Source: Spirochaetales bacterium (lineage in GTDB: Bacteria; Spirochaetota; Leptospiria; Leptospirales; Leptonemataceae). From it: a DNA stretch of 64,000 nucleotides. Every line of letters begins with the position of its first letter. Position 1 is the stretch's first letter. The stretch covers positions 682,001 to 746,000 of the forward strand of contig JABTUL010000001.1 of the NCBI GenBank assembly GCA_015075425.1, written 5' to 3'. A program made the translations under genes and the position numbers. Shown one piece after another: positions 41,202-48,554 of the stretch. The notes below the pieces were generated by a model, which saw only the letters and a list, made by a program, of their open reading frames with translations, was not told the origin of the DNA and ran no database searches.

Positions 41202-42094
41202 AGAAGAGTGCCGGCCGCCTGCTGCAGTGCCAGAACGGCTTCACCCAGACGATGGGTGAAGCCGCTGAAAAGTAAATCGTCCATAACGATCAGCCGATTT
41301 TCTTTTCCCGCCCGTGTCTGGGCCACACCCGGAAGACTCAATGCCTTCTCCTTGCCTCCCAGAGATTGTACAGCCTCTTGAAGCATGACGATCAGGTCCG
41401 GATCGGCAAGAACAATGGCCTCTGCCGATGTTGGTTTCATCCCCTTAAAACCTTGCATGGCATTCCGGAGTCCAGCCAGCTCAAACATCGTGGCCGCTCC
41501 CGTCTCTTCACCGGCGGCCAGCAGCAGCCCTGAACCTCTGGCGTAAAGGAACAGCGCTTTGCGGACATCCTTGCCTGGCGCAGCCCGATTTTTTTCCGCT
41601 TGCTTGAGATCGTTTTCCATTTTGTTGATGAGCTCGTCTGCTTGCTCTGATCTACCCAGCAGGACTCCCAGCTTTTTCAGGCGTTCTTTCGCGGCGGCCG
41701 GTGTGAAGGCTTCGGGAATGGTTTCCACGCGGGTCCCCAGAGAGCGCACTTTTTCGATCGCGGCCGGTGGACCGGCTTCACTGGATGCCAGCAAGAGATC
41801 GGGCTTTAAGCCGATGATCCCTTCCACGGGGATATTGCGAAAGTAGCCGAGGCGCGGCAGCTTTTGTGCCTCCTCCGGGAAAACGCTGGTGATGTCTGTG
41901 GCGACAAGCTTTGAGCCCTGGTTCAAGGCATAGACAATCTCAGTGATGCTGCCACCGAGCGTGATGATTCGCTGGCCGTTTGCAGAGCCTGCCTGTTCTT
42001 TGCAAGAGGCCAGAAGCAAAAAGCCCACACTGAGCTTAAGGATTCTTGCGTTTAAAATTCTGAAAATCGTGAAACTCTCGTATTTCATATTCAT
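41198..42094 (-). CDS. hmuT: Haem-binding periplasmic lipoprotein
   Basis: 298 residues. The N-terminus ends in VGFLLLASC-KE, so this substrate-binding protein is probably lipid-anchored. IITLGGSITEIVYALNQGSKLVATDITSVFPEEAQKLPRLGYFRNIPVEGIIGLKPDLLLAS is the classical HmuT/BtuF-like opening. HmuT hands haem to HmuU. The start (42094 or 42088) lies 53-59 bases inside the end of the TonB-dependent receptor gene, in another frame, implying tight translational coupling. There is no later start that keeps the signal peptide. Confidence 0.92.
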   Translation of the reverse strand: MNMKYESFTIFRILNARILKLSVGFLLLASCKEQAGSANGQRIITLGGSITEIVYALNQGSKLVATDITSVFPEEAQKLPRLGYFRNIPVEGIIGLKPDLLLASSEAGPPAAIEKVRSLGTRVETIPEAFTPAAAKERLKKLGVLLGRSEQADELINKMENDLKQAEKNRAAPGKDVRKALFLYARGSGLLLAAGEETGAATMFELAGLRNAMQGFKGMKPTSAEAIVLADPDLIVMLQEAVQSLGGKEKALSLPGVAQTRAGKENRLIVMDDLLFSGFTHRLGEAVLALQQAAGTLL

Positions 42095-44456
42095 CCTTCA
42101 ATTGTTTATTTTCCGGGCTATCGAGATACCGGTTGTAGTGCGGATCTTCGCGAAATCGCTGAAAATCGTCCGTATTGCGCAACTCATCAGCTGCGGGTGA
42201 GGGGGTATGGCTGAACGTACTCTTAAACCCGGCATAAAAAAAACGGGGCCGCATTCGATTGAGCGTTGTATGATAATGATCGAGAACGTTGTTCACTCCA
42301 AAAAATAGCTCGTAATCATTTTCTATTTTTTTATGAATACGGAAATTTATCAGATTATAGGGGTTGCGCATCACGATCCCGTAGTCAGGCTCAGAAGAGC
42401 AGGGTGCAATGATGAGTGTATCACACAATTCGATGGTTCTGGCATCCAGCTTCTGTAAAAGGAGTTCGCGCCGATTGTAGCGGAAATCCGTATAAGCTTC
42501 GCGATCCACACACCAGACGGGAGATTTTTCGCAGTAGTAGGGTTGTTTGCCGTAGATACTGCCACCAAGGAAGATGCCCAGCTGCCAGGCAGTGATTTCC
42601 CAGCCCAGGGTAAAAGTCGCGCGATGGTAAGGGCGGCCTTCCATCGGTAGATCTTTTTGCAAATCGCGGGTGTTGTTGTAAGTGTAAGTCAAATCCAGGC
42701 TGAGATGAGAAAGCGGTCGCAGGGTAATTGACGTTTCCGCTCCCTGGCTCTGGACCCTGCGGAAATTGCTGGCCCTGTAGGTGATGAGTTCTTGAGACTG
42801 CGGGTCCGGTGTTCTGCGATAGTCGATGAGATTTCTTATAGAATGGTGAAAGAGGTTGAAGGAAAGCCAGACGTTGCGACTCAGGCTGAGCTCAAGGCCA
42901 CCGTTGCCACTTTCTGAAGTTTCCGGACGCAGATCGGGATTGCCCACTACCTGGTAGCCTACTCCTGGATTTTGAAAATTGAAGTAGAGATCCTTGAAAG
43001 AAGGGGCGCGAAATCCCCGGCCAGCACTCAATCGCAGTGTAAGCCCGTCTGCGGCATCCCAGCGCACGGCTGCTCGCGGCAGGGTTGCCGATCCAAATTG
43101 CGAATCAGCCTCATGACGGGCACCGATCAGAAAATGGAATGTCCGGGACAAACGCCACTCGTCCTGTAAGAAAGCAGAGGTGCGCCGACGCTCGGCAAAG
43201 CCGCTACTCTGCGCCGGGGGAAGTTCGAGTTCCTCTGTAAAACATTTGAAAGGGAACTTTCGTTTGCAGTCCGGGGCAATGCGCGGTGAGGTCAATTCCT
43301 CTGCTATACCTTCCGCTCCGGTGCTCAGGGAATGATCCCTGATAAGATAATTCAGGTCAACACGCAATTCAGAAAGTTTATCATCTGTTACTTCTTTGAC
43401 GTCGCGTTCATCAGAATAACGTTGGTGGAGCGTATAGGTATCCAGAAATCTTGAATAGGTATAAAATGTTCGTAGTTTGAAACGGTCACTTTCCCATTCC
43501 GGTCCCAGGCCAAGCATGGTGTCATGCGTGCGCGAGCGGCGATCAAAGGTGGCCGCAGGTGGCGCTTGGTCGACACCTTCCTGATCCAGGTAGCGGTAGC
43601 TGGCCAGGCCCTTCCAGCGGTAGTCCTCGCGGGCAAAATATGTGGTGGAAAGCCCGCCGGTCAAATCCCGGTAAGCATTGCCCGTGGTGTCTTCCCGGGG
43701 TTCTTTGTCGATCAGGTCCTGGCGCTTCAGGTGCAGGGCGGCCAGTTTTTTTTCTACAGGCAGGTCACGTCGTGTGGGATCATACACGGCGGAGAGGGAT
43801 GCAATACGGTCATTTTCCGGTCCTCGTGAAGCATCGGGAGTGAGATCCCATCCATCGCTTTTATGCCAGCCAGCATAGAAAGAAGAGGCCAGTTTTTCTG
43901 ATCGACTGGAGAGAAATGCACTGGCTTCCCCTTCTCCACCGGATCCAAAATGCAGATCGCGGCCGGATCCATACTGCACTTCAGCGCCCGCACGAATCCC
44001 GGTAGCGGGCTCCCTCAGTATGATATTGATGATTCCGCCAATGGCATCAGCGCCGTAGAGGGCCGTACTGGTCCCGCGCAAGATTTCTATACGTTCAATT
44101 TCTTCAATTTTTATACGGGTCAGGTCTACAGCTTCGCTGAATCGTCCGGCAATACGCGCCCCATTGATCAAAATCAAGACATAGCGGGGATCAAGTCCCT
44201 GCAGGCGAATGACCTGTCCTCTCTGTCCGGCCTCTGCCGGGCGCACTTCAATGCCGGGCGTATAGGTTAAGGCTTCGGCCAGGTTCCGTGCATTCTGCCG
44301 TTCCAGTTGCTTGCGGCCAATGACTTCGACATTTTCAGTGCGATCCAGCGTTCGGCCGCGGACCCTCCCTTCTACGAGAATTTCGTCCACTTCTTGTCCG
44401 GACAGACCTGCCATGAACAGGAGGGAGCTTGCGAACAGTAGGGAGGAGCGGTTCAA
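42036..44456 (-). CDS. TonB-dependent haem receptor
   Basis: 806 residues: signal peptide (RSSLLFASSLLFMAGLSG), a TonB-box-like EVDEILVEG, a plug domain (residues about 40-160: NLAEALTYTPGIEVR, RIEILRGTSTALYGADAIGGIINI) and a 22-strand barrel. In the barrel GRGFRAPSFKDLYF and VVGNPDLRPETSESG correspond to the FRAP and NPNL boxes typical of haem receptors. It imports haem across the outer membrane using the TonB/ExbBD genes upstream. The C-terminal residues are not a canonical aromatic end (FHDFQNFKRKNP), so the last part may extend beyond the barrel. Its start overlaps the HmuY-like stop (ATGA). Confidence 0.94.
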   Translation of the reverse strand: MNRSSLLFASSLLFMAGLSGQEVDEILVEGRVRGRTLDRTENVEVIGRKQLERQNARNLAEALTYTPGIEVRPAEAGQRGQVIRLQGLDPRYVLILINGARIAGRFSEAVDLTRIKIEEIERIEILRGTSTALYGADAIGGIINIILREPATGIRAGAEVQYGSGRDLHFGSGGEGEASAFLSSRSEKLASSFYAGWHKSDGWDLTPDASRGPENDRIASLSAVYDPTRRDLPVEKKLAALHLKRQDLIDKEPREDTTGNAYRDLTGGLSTTYFAREDYRWKGLASYRYLDQEGVDQAPPAATFDRRSRTHDTMLGLGPEWESDRFKLRTFYTYSRFLDTYTLHQRYSDERDVKEVTDDKLSELRVDLNYLIRDHSLSTGAEGIAEELTSPRIAPDCKRKFPFKCFTEELELPPAQSSGFAERRRTSAFLQDEWRLSRTFHFLIGARHEADSQFGSATLPRAAVRWDAADGLTLRLSAGRGFRAPSFKDLYFNFQNPGVGYQVVGNPDLRPETSESGNGGLELSLSRNVWLSFNLFHHSIRNLIDYRRTPDPQSQELITYRASNFRRVQSQGAETSITLRPLSHLSLDLTYTYNNTRDLQKDLPMEGRPYHRATFTLGWEITAWQLGIFLGGSIYGKQPYYCEKSPVWCVDREAYTDFRYNRRELLLQKLDARTIELCDTLIIAPCSSEPDYGIVMRNPYNLINFRIHKKIENDYELFFGVNNVLDHYHTTLNRMRPRFFYAGFKSTFSHTPSPAADELRNTDDFQRFREDPHYNRYLDSPENKQLKDEYEIREFHDFQNFKRKNP

Positions 44457-45133
44457 AGAAGTTCCCAGCGAAAGGTTGGATAACCGGAAGTTCCGGCCTG
44501 ATCGTAGTAGTCAGTCATCTGTAGCTTGTAATGAGCTGTGCCGTCGTTTGCCCGGATGATGTAGACCCGGTCTTTTGCGGTAAGGACATGCGTGTCGGAA
44601 TTGTAATCGTACCATTGCACGAGGGCAGCTGCACCATCCCATTCAACAGCGGAACTACCTGAGGCTCCACCGGACTCGGCAGAGACTCTCTGGTCGATGG
44701 CGATGGTGCAAGTGACGCTCTTTACTCCGGCAAAGTCGTCTGACCCTGTATCACAGGAGCCGCCGCTGCCACTCCATGCCGTGCCGCTGTTTGTGCTGAT
44801 GCGAAAACGCTGAAAGCGTAGATCCCAGACGGTGCTCGCCGCATTCACGGTGGAAAGGGATCCCAGATCGCAGTAGGTCCAGTTGACACCGGATACCGCT
44901 TTTACCACTGTGCGCCGGGTGTTACCGCTGAGTTCCGTATTGCATCCGTTGCTATTTAAGTCGTCCGGCACGCGGATGCCCAGCATGAGCAGCATGGCTG
45001 CCCCGTCTTCGCCCGGGTCCTGCCTTTTCCCCCAGGGATTCAGGCTGTTCACACAACTCGCGAAACCCAGGGAAAAAGTAAGGACGACGAAAAACCGGAC
45101 AGCCATCAGTTTAATTTTTTTGTAAAGTCGCAT
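44453..45133 (-). CDS. hmuY: HmuY-family haem-binding lipoprotein
   Basis: About 226 residues from ATG 45133 (GTG 45139 and ATG 45106 are also possible). Lipobox LGFASC-V. The mature protein shows the HmuY pattern: STVWDLRFQRFRISTNSG, QWYDYNSDTHVLTAKDRVYIIRANDG and AHYKLQMTDYYDQAGTSGYPTFRWELL at the C-terminus. In Porphyromonas HmuY two His ligate haem; candidates here are in DTHVL and TAHYK, but alignment is needed. It would capture haem at the cell surface for the receptor encoded immediately downstream. It overlaps the preceding lipoprotein gene. Confidence 0.86.
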   Translation of the reverse strand: MRLYKKIKLMAVRFFVVLTFSLGFASCVNSLNPWGKRQDPGEDGAAMLLMLGIRVPDDLNSNGCNTELSGNTRRTVVKAVSGVNWTYCDLGSLSTVNAASTVWDLRFQRFRISTNSGTAWSGSGGSCDTGSDDFAGVKSVTCTIAIDQRVSAESGGASGSSAVEWDGAAALVQWYDYNSDTHVLTAKDRVYIIRANDGTAHYKLQMTDYYDQAGTSGYPTFRWELL

Positions 45134-45689
45134 TCGCACCGTTACCCGTGCCAGCTCCGCTACCGGTGTAGAATTGTACTATGTAGGCACCGGCTGTATT
45201 GAAAGTGATGGTCCGATCTCCCGTTCCACCGCCGACAGTAATCGCAGTCCCGGCTGCCCGGCCGCCGCCTGATGTGGTGTCCAGAGGGCAGTGATTCCCC
45301 GTGTAGCCCGAGATGGTTCCTTCACCGCTATTGGCCGGATAGGATCCAAAGTTCTTTACCAGCCACGCTTCACCGGCAGTCGCAGAGTCAAAGACCACAT
45401 AGACTGCGCTCTGGGCCCGGGCATCGTCTCCTTTGAAAAGGTTGAAGGCCGTAGATGTGGGAATGATGAGCGTTTCCTGAGACGTGACCGTGCTCGAACC
45501 GGCCGTTGCAGTGACGGCGCAATTCAGATTGCGACCGCTGTCGCTGGAAGCGCTGAGCGCGACCAGAGCAGCCCCCAGTAGTGCCGGACTTACCCCCTTT
45601 TGTTTTTCCTGCCCCGGAAGCTCAATGCCCAGCTCCGTGCAGTGCAAAAAGAGCCCGAGTAGCAAAGGTAGTGCCAATTGTGGTTTCAA
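45111..45689 (-). CDS. Unknown lipoprotein in the haem operon
   Basis: 192 residues from TTG 45689, chosen because TTTTTTGGAGGA precedes it and it yields the clean signal KPQLALPLLLGLFLHC-TELG; the frame is open to 45749. The mature chain is small-residue and Thr/Gly-rich with SAVYVVFDSATAGEAWLVKNFGSY, TGNHCPLDTTSGGG and TITFNTAGAYIVQFYTGSG, i.e. a beta-rich fold. No known family. It is the first gene after the Fur-like operator at 45728-45742 and overlaps hmuY, so a part in haem or iron capture is a fair inference. Confidence 0.72.
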   Translation of the reverse strand: MKPQLALPLLLGLFLHCTELGIELPGQEKQKGVSPALLGAALVALSASSDSGRNLNCAVTATAGSSTVTSQETLIIPTSTAFNLFKGDDARAQSAVYVVFDSATAGEAWLVKNFGSYPANSGEGTISGYTGNHCPLDTTSGGGRAAGTAITVGGGTGDRTITFNTAGAYIVQFYTGSGAGTGNGANATLQKN

Positions 45690-45720
45690 GATAATGTTCC
45701 TCCAAAAAAGAATTTGCGGC

Positions 45721-45749
45721 ATATATTTGAGAATGCGTCTCAGAGTCAA
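45721..45749 (-). promoter_or_regulatory. Promoter with embedded Fur-like operator (haem operon)
   Basis: On the minus strand TTGACT (45749-45744) and ATATAT (45726-45721) are 17 bp apart. Between them lies the inverted repeat TGAGA-ATGCG-TCTCA (45728-45742), which matches 11 of 15 positions of the 7-1-7 Fur box TGATAATGATTATCA. The promoter would drive the unknown lipoprotein, hmuY, receptor and hmuTUV. Binding inside the spacer would block RNA polymerase, so repression by iron is expected. Confidence 0.68.
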
Positions 45750-45779
45750 TTTATTTGAGATAGATTTTGCGTCTTGGTC

Positions 45780-46340
45780 TCATTTGCTGGTCGACTCGGG
45801 TATGGTGGGATTTTCCGCCAGAGAATAAACCAGCCGCACTTCTAAGGTTAGCTCTTTTTGAGGCATATTCTGAGGAAAAGGCGGGAATGGGGCCGCTCGA
45901 CGTGCGCTGTAGAGGGCTCCCCGGTTCAGCCCAGCGTGCATGCTGGGACGGATTATACTGACATTTTGTAGAGTGCCATCGCTTTGGATGACAAGGCGTA
46001 AAAGGACGCTCCCTTCATGGCGCGCCTCCTGTTCCTCCACTGGATAGTAGCGCGATCGGGAAAGGGCGGAGAGAATGAGCAGCCTGTAGGAGGGAAGTGC
46101 GGTTTCCGCCGGCCCTGCCGGCGCGCTTTCCTGTGGTGGACTGTGTTCGAGCGGGCCGGGTCCTTTAGCTGCCGGCGGCCGCAACTGGAAGGCCATCGTG
46201 ATAGCGCCCGGTTGCTTCGTCGGGCTTTCCGGTAGCCTGGCTCCATAGGCCAGAAGGGAGAGAGAAAGCAGAAGAGCCGGGCTCGCCACGGTGTAGATCC
46301 GGCCGCGAAGAACCAATCTATGGAGCGGGTCGGTACTCAA
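45780..46340 (-). CDS. tonB: TonB-like energy transducer
   Basis: 186 residues from TTG 46340, which has GGAGATCAACA before it and overlaps exbD by 23 bp. One N-terminal membrane helix (residues about 16-33), a short Pro-rich linker (RPPAAKGPGPLEHSPPQES) and a C-terminal TonB domain with YYPVEEQEARHEGSVLLRLVIQSDGTLQNVSIIRPS. It carries proton-motive energy from ExbBD to the haem receptor. The linker is short for a diderm cell, suggesting a narrow local periplasm or a helper protein. It is the last gene of the exbB-exbD-tonB unit. Confidence 0.9.
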   Translation of the reverse strand: MSTDPLHRLVLRGRIYTVASPALLLSLSLLAYGARLPESPTKQPGAITMAFQLRPPAAKGPGPLEHSPPQESAPAGPAETALPSYRLLILSALSRSRYYPVEEQEARHEGSVLLRLVIQSDGTLQNVSIIRPSMHAGLNRGALYSARRAAPFPPFPQNMPQKELTLEVRLVYSLAENPTIPESTSK

Positions 46341-46701
46341 TGTTGATCTCCTTCAAACCGGCAGCGCGTGCATGATCGAGCAGGCGTACAAAATGCCGGA
46401 AGGGTACTGCCTGATCGGCGCGGATGGTGAGAGGCTGCTTGTGCCGATTCTGCAAGAAACTCGCCAGGTCTGCCGGCAGGATGGCCCGACCGGCCGAGCT
46501 ATAGTCACCCCGCGCATCTACAAGAATGATAAGCGCTTCCCCGGGTCCGGAGCTGCCGGATCTGGCCTCGGGCAGAGCAATGTCCAGAACGGGCGGGGAA
46601 AACTGGCTGGCCAACAGGAAGAAAATGAGAAGCAGAAAAGTCAGGTCCACCATGGGTGCCAGGTCAATGCGCCGCCCGGTAGGCGCGGGCATCTGGAACA
46701 T
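46318..46701 (-). CDS. exbD: Biopolymer transport protein ExbD
   Basis: 127 residues. A single N-terminal membrane helix contains the functional Asp (IDLAPMVDLTFLLLIFFLL), followed by a small periplasmic domain ending KEINIEYRPAP. It forms the proton channel with ExbB for TonB action. The start shares a base with the exbB stop (TGATG). Confidence 0.92.
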   Translation of the reverse strand: MFQMPAPTGRRIDLAPMVDLTFLLLIFFLLASQFSPPVLDIALPEARSGSSGPGEALIILVDARGDYSSAGRAILPADLASFLQNRHKQPLTIRADQAVPFRHFVRLLDHARAAGLKEINIEYRPAP

Positions 46702-47360
46702 CAGGGATGTTCCTCCGCTGGCCCGGCCAGAAAAAGCCCGCTGATGGAGTTCATCAGATGAATGCGCCGGGCTGCGAGGCGTTCGAGAATCGCATGCCCT
46801 GCCTGAGCCGGGATGGCTACAATCAGACCTGCTGCCGTGGTAATCAAGGCTTCCCAGATACCGGTGGCCAGGCTGGCCATGGAGGGTGATTCCGTCTGGC
46901 TAATGGTGGAAAAGGCGACGATCATACCTGTAATTGTGCCCAAAAGTCCTATCAGGGGAGAAAGCTGGCTTAAGGTGGCCAGGGCCGGGGTGCGCCGATT
47001 CATCCGCCAGATTAAATCCTCACCAAAGCGGCGCACTTCCTGCGGGTGTACGCCCGGATGATCCAGTAAAAAGCGGGCCAGCCTTAGCGGTTCGTTTTCC
47101 TTCCATAAAAAGAAGGCCCGGCGCTCAATGGGCCTGAGCGACAGATCCAGGTGTTCCAGAAGTTTCTCTGAACTACCCGGCAGGCGGTCGTACTCTGCCA
47201 GTCGCCGTTCCCAGTGTTCCGCCATGGAGCTGCGCGGAAGGCTTGTGGAAAGAAAGTAGATGCACCGATCCAGAAGAACTCCGACCGTTAGAGCCAGCAG
47301 GATGAGCAACACCCACATGAGCGGGCCGCCGCGTTCAAAAAGGGAGACCATTTCTGTCAT
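46701..47360 (-). CDS. exbB: Biopolymer transport protein ExbB (MotA/TolQ/ExbB family)
   Basis: 219 residues from ATG 47360, preceded by GAGAGAG; a TTG at 47396 is the longest alternative. Three membrane helices: residues about 12-33 (GGPLMWVLLILLALTVGVLL), then LIGLLGTITGMIVAFSTI and ITTAAGLIVAIPAQAGHAIL, which are the conserved ExbB/TolQ helices lining the channel. First gene of exbB-exbD-tonB, divergent from hugZ across the shared operator region. Confidence 0.92.
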   Translation of the reverse strand: MTEMVSLFERGGPLMWVLLILLALTVGVLLDRCIYFLSTSLPRSSMAEHWERRLAEYDRLPGSSEKLLEHLDLSLRPIERRAFFLWKENEPLRLARFLLDHPGVHPQEVRRFGEDLIWRMNRRTPALATLSQLSPLIGLLGTITGMIVAFSTISQTESPSMASLATGIWEALITTAAGLIVAIPAQAGHAILERLAARRIHLMNSISGLFLAGPAEEHP

Positions 47361-47386
47361 AAACTCTCTCAATGTGCGCAAAATAC

Positions 47387-47427
47387 TTGACACCAAATAT
47401 TGATACTGAGAATGAGTCGCAAATCAA
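47387..47427. promoter_or_regulatory. Divergent promoters sharing a Fur-like operator
   Basis: TGAGAATGAGTCGCA (47407-47421) differs at two of 15 positions from the operator at 45728-45742. For exbB, minus-strand TTGATT (47427-47422) and TATCAA (47405-47400) flank it with a 16-bp spacer. For hugZ, plus-strand TTGACA (47387-47392) would place the -10 over the box, although that -10 is poor. One repressor dimer could control both directions. Confidence 0.6.
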
Positions 47428-47459: not shown

Positions 47460-48002
47460 ATGTCGGAAAAAGAAAGTGAAGAGCAAAAACTCAAGGAGGC
47501 CCGCAGTGAAGCGCAACGGTTGCTTGAGGCAAAGTCGGTTATCCTGGCAAGCGCCGATCAAAATGCTGAGCCGCATGCCAGTTACGCTCCTTTTGTCCGT
47601 GACGCTGAGGGTGCCATCTATGTTTATTTGAGTGAACTGGCCCGGCACTACCACACTCTCACAGAGAATTCCCGCGCCAGTGCCTTTTTTGTGGAGGATG
47701 AGGCGCTTTCCGCCAATATCTTTGCCCGTAAACGTCTTACCGTGCAATGCTCTGTGCAGCCGCTTCCCCGTGAAGAAGAACAGGCCGCCCGGGTTTTTGA
47801 CCTCTTCAGCGAGCGCTACGGCAAGTTTTTCGCTCACTTAAAGGATATGAAGGATTTTCATCTTTTCCGCTTATCGCCCGAGAATGCGACTCTGGTCATT
47901 GGCTTTGGTGCAGCGTACAGGCTCGATAAAGGCGATCTGAGTAACATAGCCTGGCTGCGCGGTGAACACGGGAAGGCTGGAGCGGGACTGGCTCATGCTT
48001 GA
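47460..48002 (+). CDS. hugZ: HugZ-type haem utilisation protein
   Basis: 180 residues from ATG 47460, preceded by AAAAGGAGAG. A split-barrel flavin-reductase-like fold: AQRLLEAKSVILASADQNAEPHASYAPFV, IYVYLSELARHYHTLTENSRASAFFVEDE and the C-terminal LVIGFGAAYRLDKGD, which matches the GFGxAF/Y motif of HugZ. HugZ proteins bind and degrade haem in the cytoplasm, releasing iron. It faces exbB across the shared operator and is followed by hutX. Confidence 0.9.
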   Translation: MSEKESEEQKLKEARSEAQRLLEAKSVILASADQNAEPHASYAPFVRDAEGAIYVYLSELARHYHTLTENSRASAFFVEDEALSANIFARKRLTVQCSVQPLPREEEQAARVFDLFSERYGKFFAHLKDMKDFHLFRLSPENATLVIGFGAAYRLDKGDLSNIAWLRGEHGKAGAGLAHA

Positions 48003-48041
48003 TCCGGGATTCGTCGCTTTGAGCTCTGAATAAGGAAAAAT

Positions 48042-48554
48042 ATGACAAAAATTGCAGAAGACTATAATGCCGATTTAAAAGAACACCTGGCCCGGAAGCC
48101 GGGCGAAATTCTCGAAAGCGTGGCCGGGCAATATGGACTCTCTCTTTTTGCAACCATCCGGCATCTGCCAGCAGAAATGTGGAAAGTGGTACCGGGCGCA
48201 GAGGCGCTGAATATTCTTGCTGATGTGGCCAGCTGGGGCGATGTCACGACCATCATTCACACGGAGGATGTGATTTTTGAATTCAAAGGGCCCTTCCCGG
48301 AAGGAAAAAGCGGCCGGGGCTACTATAACTTAATCGGCTCCGGAACGCCGGAAATGAGCGGCCACCTGAGTATGCAAAATTGCCAGCATGTCGTCTTCCT
48401 CGAACGCCCCTTTATGGGACGCCCCAGCGCTGCTATCATCTTTTTCAATGCCCGGGGCGCAGCCATGTTCAAGATCTTTGTGGGCCGGGATGAAGCGCGC
48501 GAACTGAAAAGAGATCAACTGGAGCGTTTTGAGCAATGGAAAAATCGTAAATGA
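48042..48554 (+). CDS. hutX: HutX-type cytoplasmic haem carrier
   Basis: 170 residues. LPAEMWKVVPGAEALNILADVASWGDVTTIIHTEDVIFEFKGPFP and NLIGSGTPEMSGHLSMQNCQHVVFLERPFMGRPSAAIIFFNARGAAMFKIFVGRDE match the HutX/HuvX family, which stores or passes haem to degradation enzymes. AAGGAAAA precedes the ATG. It lies 39 bp downstream of hugZ and completes the intracellular arm of the haem system. Confidence 0.91.
   Translation: MTKIAEDYNADLKEHLARKPGEILESVAGQYGLSLFATIRHLPAEMWKVVPGAEALNILADVASWGDVTTIIHTEDVIFEFKGPFPEGKSGRGYYNLIGSGTPEMSGHLSMQNCQHVVFLERPFMGRPSAAIIFFNARGAAMFKIFVGRDEARELKRDQLERFEQWKNRK

Follow-up and report, generated by a model that had tools for sequence, protein, structure and literature searches.

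A probable Fur-type iron operator in the exbB-hugZ intergenic region of a Leptonemataceae haem-uptake locus

Overview

The gap between the divergent genes exbB and hugZ holds a 15-bp palindrome, TGAGAATGAGTCGCA (operator 2, positions 47407 to 47421, forward strand), which very probably acts as a genuine switch under a Fur-type, iron-sensing repressor. Judging from sequence evidence, we put at about 0.77 the probability that it is the operator of the classical Fur protein encoded at C2:519533-519892. At the level of the locus this is an ordinary Fur-type operator; what is new is the variant spelling of the motif and its fixed pairing with a HemR box at hemA. No description of this operator was found in the open-licence literature searched. 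Unless another contig or locus is named, coordinates refer to the window, the whole stretch of 64,000 nucleotides analyzed (G000:C1:682001-746000 of a 4.13-Mb genome in four contigs).

Gene content of the haem-uptake locus

The genes around the operators form a haem-uptake locus. On the minus strand lie exbB (46701 to 47360; Pfam MotA_ExbB), whose ATG at 47360 is 46 bp from operator 2, exbD (46318 to 46701; Pfam ExbD), tonB (45780 to 46340; Pfam TonB_C), a lipoprotein-like gene (45111 to 45689, with a probable TTG start at 45689), and genes for an HmuY haem-binding protein (44453 to 45139; Pfam HmuY) and a TonB-dependent haem receptor (42036 to 44456; Pfam plug and barrel domains, with TonB-hemin as the best NCBIfam match, below its cut-off). 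Genes identified by eye as those of an ABC transporter (binding protein, permease, and ATPase) follow the receptor gene. The lipoprotein-like product matched no family in Pfam or NCBIfam; by eye, similar proteins are encoded at motif sites in three relatives (G003, G005, and G006).

On the plus strand, hugZ/hutZ (47460 to 48002; Pfam PNPOx) encodes a haem-utilization protein of the HutZ/HugZ type that scores 125 bits against TIGR04110 (HutZ), short of the cut-off of 225, and hutX (48042 to 48554) encodes a haem carrier that scores 196.8 bits against TIGR04108, above the cut-off of 110. Among the 30 genomes of the order HugZ was found in its own genome only, and a wider contig scan returned no relatives; exbB and hemA therefore served as the tests of conservation. 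The best HugZ matches in a plasmid collection were Vibrio and Arcobacter proteins at about 37% identity, which suggests that the hugZ region (47460 to 48554) may have been acquired from outside the order.

Operator sequence and chance expectation

Operator 2 is a 7-1-7 palindrome, TGAGAAT-G-AGTCGCA, called on its exact match, its score against a hemA-trained matrix, and its conservation at exbB. The sequence-only reading had placed a second copy of an operator between the divergent genes, and that copy is found exactly there, identical at 13 of 15 positions (2 differ) to operator 1 (TGAGAATGCGTCTCA, 45728 to 45742) in the promoter of the lipoprotein-like gene. Its right half, TCGCA, is unusual among motif half-sites, and its TGA..GCA ends are unlike the TGA..TCA ends of the motif. 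A weaker 7-1-7 site, TGATACTGAGAATGA (47401 to 47415; matrix score, 7.45), overlaps it at an offset of 6 bp, a spacing reminiscent of overlapping Fur dimers.

A search of the window at up to three mismatches gave seven matches against 1.61 expected, a number reached in none of 100 shuffles. The scoring matrix was built from the hemA promoter sites of 16 relatives, with no window site in the training set; the 38- or 39-bp spacing in that set was chosen according to where TCTCA was present, which amounts to a slight fit. Over the 64-kb window, the matrix ranked operator 1 first (20.9), a copy at 559 to 573 (TGATAATGATTCTCA) second (20.7), and operator 2 third (17.2), with the next-best position at 11.5. 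The second-ranked copy is coding sequence: it falls within the gene of a small membrane protein, which follows an FMN-binding-like gene. Upstream of the membrane-protein gene, just past the window edge, is a weaker site, TGAGACTGATTCTTG (L167 2199), and the motif also accompanies genes that resemble this one by eye in G012 and G013.

Random windows reached 20.9 in 2 of 300 cases and 17.2 in 19 of 300; this last frequency, like the presence of motif copies in coding sequence, speaks for operator 2 being a chance resemblance in a promoter gap. However, two of the three best positions in the window are promoter gaps of one haem locus, and the exbB promoters of six other genomes also hold the site, making coincidence very improbable.

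Promoter architecture

A putative exbB promoter (47400 to 47427, minus strand) consists of TTGATT at 47427 to 47422 and TATCAA at 47405 to 47400, separated by 16 nucleotides, of which operator 2 occupies 15. The earlier proposal that the operator falls between the exbB −35 and −10 elements is plausible as a promoter prediction, but the hexamers match at only 8 of 12 positions, and a sigma-70 promoter scan listed no promoter at operator 2. On the other side, a perfect −35 hexamer, TTGACA (47387 to 47392, plus strand), precedes hugZ. The same proposal had the operator overlapping the hugZ −10 element; the expected position does fall within the motif, but no good hexamer is present there (best, 4 of 6 matches at 15 nucleotides; 3 of 6 at 18 nucleotides), leaving the overlap unproven and the putative hugZ promoter a weak call.

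Operator 1 is similarly placed within a putative promoter of the lipoprotein-like gene (45720 to 45749, minus strand; TTGACT-18-TATATG, 9 of 12 matches), and the lipoprotein promoters of the window, G003, and G005 share TTGACN followed by one base and an operator that fills the spacer. We infer that this operator-in-spacer layout is that of a steric repressor. Paired operators 28 to 36 bp apart occur in the haem-locus promoters of several relatives (L164 12880/12916, L165 8088/8116, and L166 4996/5026), and the lipoprotein promoter of the window shows only degenerate traces of a second operator copy, near 45756 to 45782.

Conservation and regulon membership

The window ExbB, searched as 46701 to 47363 (one codon longer than the gene given above), was compared with 30 genomes, and 10 close family exbB genes were examined upstream. 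Conservation in related genomes had been named as a check on the motif, and the site is kept in 7 of these 10 promoters (its own genome, G006, G010, G016, G017, G018, and G019), with scores of 14.8 to 22.3 and at 39 to 81 bp before the start of the ExbB match; a score of 14 was reached in 16 of 5,000 shuffled 440-bp regions. The three family exbB genes without an upstream site (G011, G012, and G013) have a TonB-receptor-like gene ending 127 to 189 bp upstream. No site was found upstream of 12 more distant ExbB genes, mainly from the sister family. In G006 and, by eye, in G010, exbB faces a haem oxygenase gene across the site, in the place of hugZ; with HugZ found in none of the other order genomes searched, this shows that the operator is retained while the haem-degrading enzyme differs.

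Across the genomes, the motif is a 7-1-7 palindrome of about TGAKAYT-N-ARTMTCA. A search of the own genome with TGAGANTNANTCTCA, allowing at most one mismatch, gives 18 sites, compared with 2 for the reversed pattern. Five are at iron or haem genes (hemA, feoA-feoB, bacterioferritin, and the two window operators), the bacterioferritin site being about 230 bp before the ATG, where the previous gene ends. Three others precede a rhodanese-domain gene, precede an ABC-type binding protein gene, or lie between a cytochrome c7 gene and clpB; eight are inside genes, and two are copies of one site, TGATACTAAATCTCA, in a repeated element, with identical flanks and 9 kb apart (G000:C1:2342875 and C1:2352025; L053 and L054). 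Gene names at motif sites were assigned by eye unless a Pfam match is stated; Pfam matches at the own-genome sites comprise Ferritin, FeoA, FeoB, the hemA product, Rhodanese, and Cytochrome_C7.

Exact matches to TGAKAHTNADTMTCA number 117 in 22 family genomes against 4 for the reversed control; in 8 sister-family genomes they number 33, against 4 for the control. Pfam identified the genes adjacent to sites in relatives as encoding bacterioferritin, FeoA, rubrerythrin, haem oxygenase, ExbB, imelysin, BFD ferredoxin, HiPIP, SdhC, and cytochromes, and the motif also precedes HmuY-like lipoprotein genes. Among 42 family sites read, 12 are beside a Pfam-confirmed iron, haem, or redox gene, 7 more are so by eye, and 23 have no evident iron gene; 4 of 17 sister-family sites read were Pfam confirmed (haem oxygenase, two TonB receptors, and imelysin). 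In G003 and G005, sites precede lipoprotein-hmuTUV genes, HmuY-receptor genes, and a haem oxygenase cluster. Operator 2 is part of an iron and haem regulon that extends across the family, and the argument that it is a real regulator site gains support from its conservation at exbB and from the motif at feoA, bacterioferritin, hemA, and haem loci.

hemA promoters and the HemR hem-box

Family hemA promoters were located by protein homology and not by the motif. All 17 (16 relatives, L026 to L041, and the own genome, L025 1412-1466, G000:C2:227849 onward) hold a perfect hem-box, TGACA-N6-TGACA, with the palindrome 38 to 39 bp upstream, although the palindrome is degenerate in one of them. It was absent at five loci with weak HemA matches (four in the sister family and one G006 fragment). 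A wider contig scan with HemA found motif and hem-box at this spacing in 12 of 12 Leptospirales/Spirochaetia records, several of which resemble training genomes and so give no independent proof; at 67 other loci, 66 of them scored, 1 passed a score of 10.

The hemA operon of the own genome includes histidine kinase and response regulator genes, and HemR controls hemA and exbB (exbB1/exbD1) in Leptospira biflexa, raising the question of whether the response regulator HemR itself binds operator 2. The hem-box, however, is a direct repeat with no exact copy in the window and none at up to two mismatches in the exbB-hugZ gap, and the hemA promoters hold palindrome and hem-box as separate, adjacent boxes. 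This assignment is accordingly most unlikely and was dropped.

At hemA, the hem-box overlaps the probable −35 element, and the operator occupies a position where activators or co-regulators are more usual than blockers. One Fur-type operator might thus serve opposite jobs, blocking haem and iron uptake promoters from within the −35/−10 spacer and, with HemR, activating hemA when iron is plentiful; we regard this as possible, with the odds somewhat against it. If it is true, hemA would be a two-input promoter that receives iron signals through Fur and haem-precursor signals through HemKR. The fixed pairing of operator and HemR box suggests how iron and haem signals meet.

Candidate regulators

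The genome encodes only two Fur-family proteins. The first (C2:519533-519892) best matches Fur models and solved Fur structures, below the NCBIfam cut-off, and has an arginine in its recognition helix (IYR); the second (C1:547448) has PerRA, then IrrA and Irr, as its best NCBIfam matches and an asparagine in the helix (VYN). According to two papers, arginine versus asparagine at this position separates Fur from PerR/Irr (PMC8638967 and PMC8638851). The order yielded 80 Fur-family hits, of which 71 were read; by eye, a classical Fur is present in 27 of the 30 genomes. A DtxR-type regulator was considered and rejected, with no PF02742 match in the genome and a positive control that matched in 11 of 14. 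No site scoring above 10 was found upstream of the fur genes read (the L099 gene left out) that would indicate Fur autoregulation.

Irr regulons resemble the gene set of the motif (hemA, bacterioferritin, rubrerythrin, sdhC, and HiPIP), and the motif core AGA..TCT is reminiscent of Irr boxes. Both points favor assigning the operator to the PerRA/Irr-like protein, as part of an Irr-like regulon linking haem synthesis with iron storage and uptake, as do the NCBIfam matches of that protein and its distribution: in G007 and G021 (genomes 89% and 78% complete) the motif occurs alongside this class of protein, with no classical Fur found, and G002, conversely, has a classical Fur but lacks the exact motif. 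Nevertheless, the helix of this protein has the PerR/Irr asparagine, whereas the motif ends TGA..TCA as Fur boxes do. In addition, sister-family genomes without a PerRA/Irr-like protein among the hits read (a similar one is present in G023, and eight low-scoring sister-family hits lie outside the set read) retain the site beside genes for a haem oxygenase, TonB receptors, and an imelysin. The PerRA/Irr-like assignment is therefore unlikely, if less so than coincidence or a HemR site. Because of the helix arginine and the sister-family sites at iron genes, classical Fur is favored as the regulator, although not proven. A perfect palindrome, TTAGAATAATTCTAA, at G000:C1:406564-406578 (L006 1465), which we take to be Irr/PerR-like, lies directly before a U32-peptidase-like gene and is a candidate site for the PerRA/Irr-like protein.

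Proposed mechanism and significance

With classical Fur as the regulator, iron-bound Fur dimers would occupy 47407 to 47421 and cover both the spacer of the exbB promoter and the expected place of the hugZ −10 element. Plentiful iron would then repress the two divergent haem operons (exbB-exbD-tonB and hugZ-hutX) together, jointly shutting off the energizing of haem uptake and the breakdown of haem, and at low iron Fur would leave and both operons would fire. Few transcription factor sites have been proven in Leptospira (PMC5243855). With an operator spelling and a gene list defined, the iron circuit of this order becomes open to direct testing.

Comparison with known systems

The hut/tonB1 locus of Vibrio is divergently arranged and under Fur control. 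As in that locus, where a table in PMC7600106 lists hutZ-hutX-hutW locus tags neighboring tonB1-exbB1-exbD1, the haem-degradation genes here adjoin TonB-ExbB-ExbD genes, and HutZ is about 37% identical to Vibrio HutZ. The present locus differs in its spirochaete host, its HmuY-like proteins in the operon, its variant operator, and the lack of a visible hutW beside hutX. Haem genes of L. biflexa are under HemKR/hem-box control, as described in PMC11426443, and the two-component genes in the hemA operon and the perfect hem-box at hemA are shared features; unlike in L. biflexa, a Fur-type box lies 38 to 39 bp upstream of the hem-box, and exbB has no hem-box.

With Irr and PerR boxes the motif shares a Fur-family palindrome at iron and haem genes. 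Those boxes end TTA..TAA, a form absent from the motif, which has TGA..TCA ends: of the 40 letters in its column 2 (20 sites counted on both strands, many of them chosen by pattern), 39 are G, and G also stands there in 15 of 16 hemA sites chosen by position.

The classical E. coli-type Fur box in 7-1-7 form is TGATAATNATTATCA. Like it, the motif is an inverted repeat of two 7-base half-sites around one base, with TGA..TCA ends, and is found in the promoters of iron uptake genes, with storage genes also represented across relatives and a classical Fur encoded in the genome; at exbB-hugZ, the weaker copy 6 bp away adds to the likeness. Unlike E. coli TGATAAT, the half-site is mostly TGAGACT, TGAGATT, or TGATACT, with position 4 mostly G and position 6 more often C or T than A. 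The suspicion that the motif may differ from E. coli Fur proved right in practice: operator 2 matches the E. coli 19-mer at 13 of 19 positions, but 11 window positions do so against 5.4 expected, and the 19-mer was rejected as a finder. This chance-level performance is in keeping with canonical Fur-box searches in Leptospira, which are reported to have revealed no evident Fur targets (PMC3953431 and PMC8638967). Since the 7-1-7 format of Fur is kept, the motif is a variant of the Fur site and not a different kind of site.
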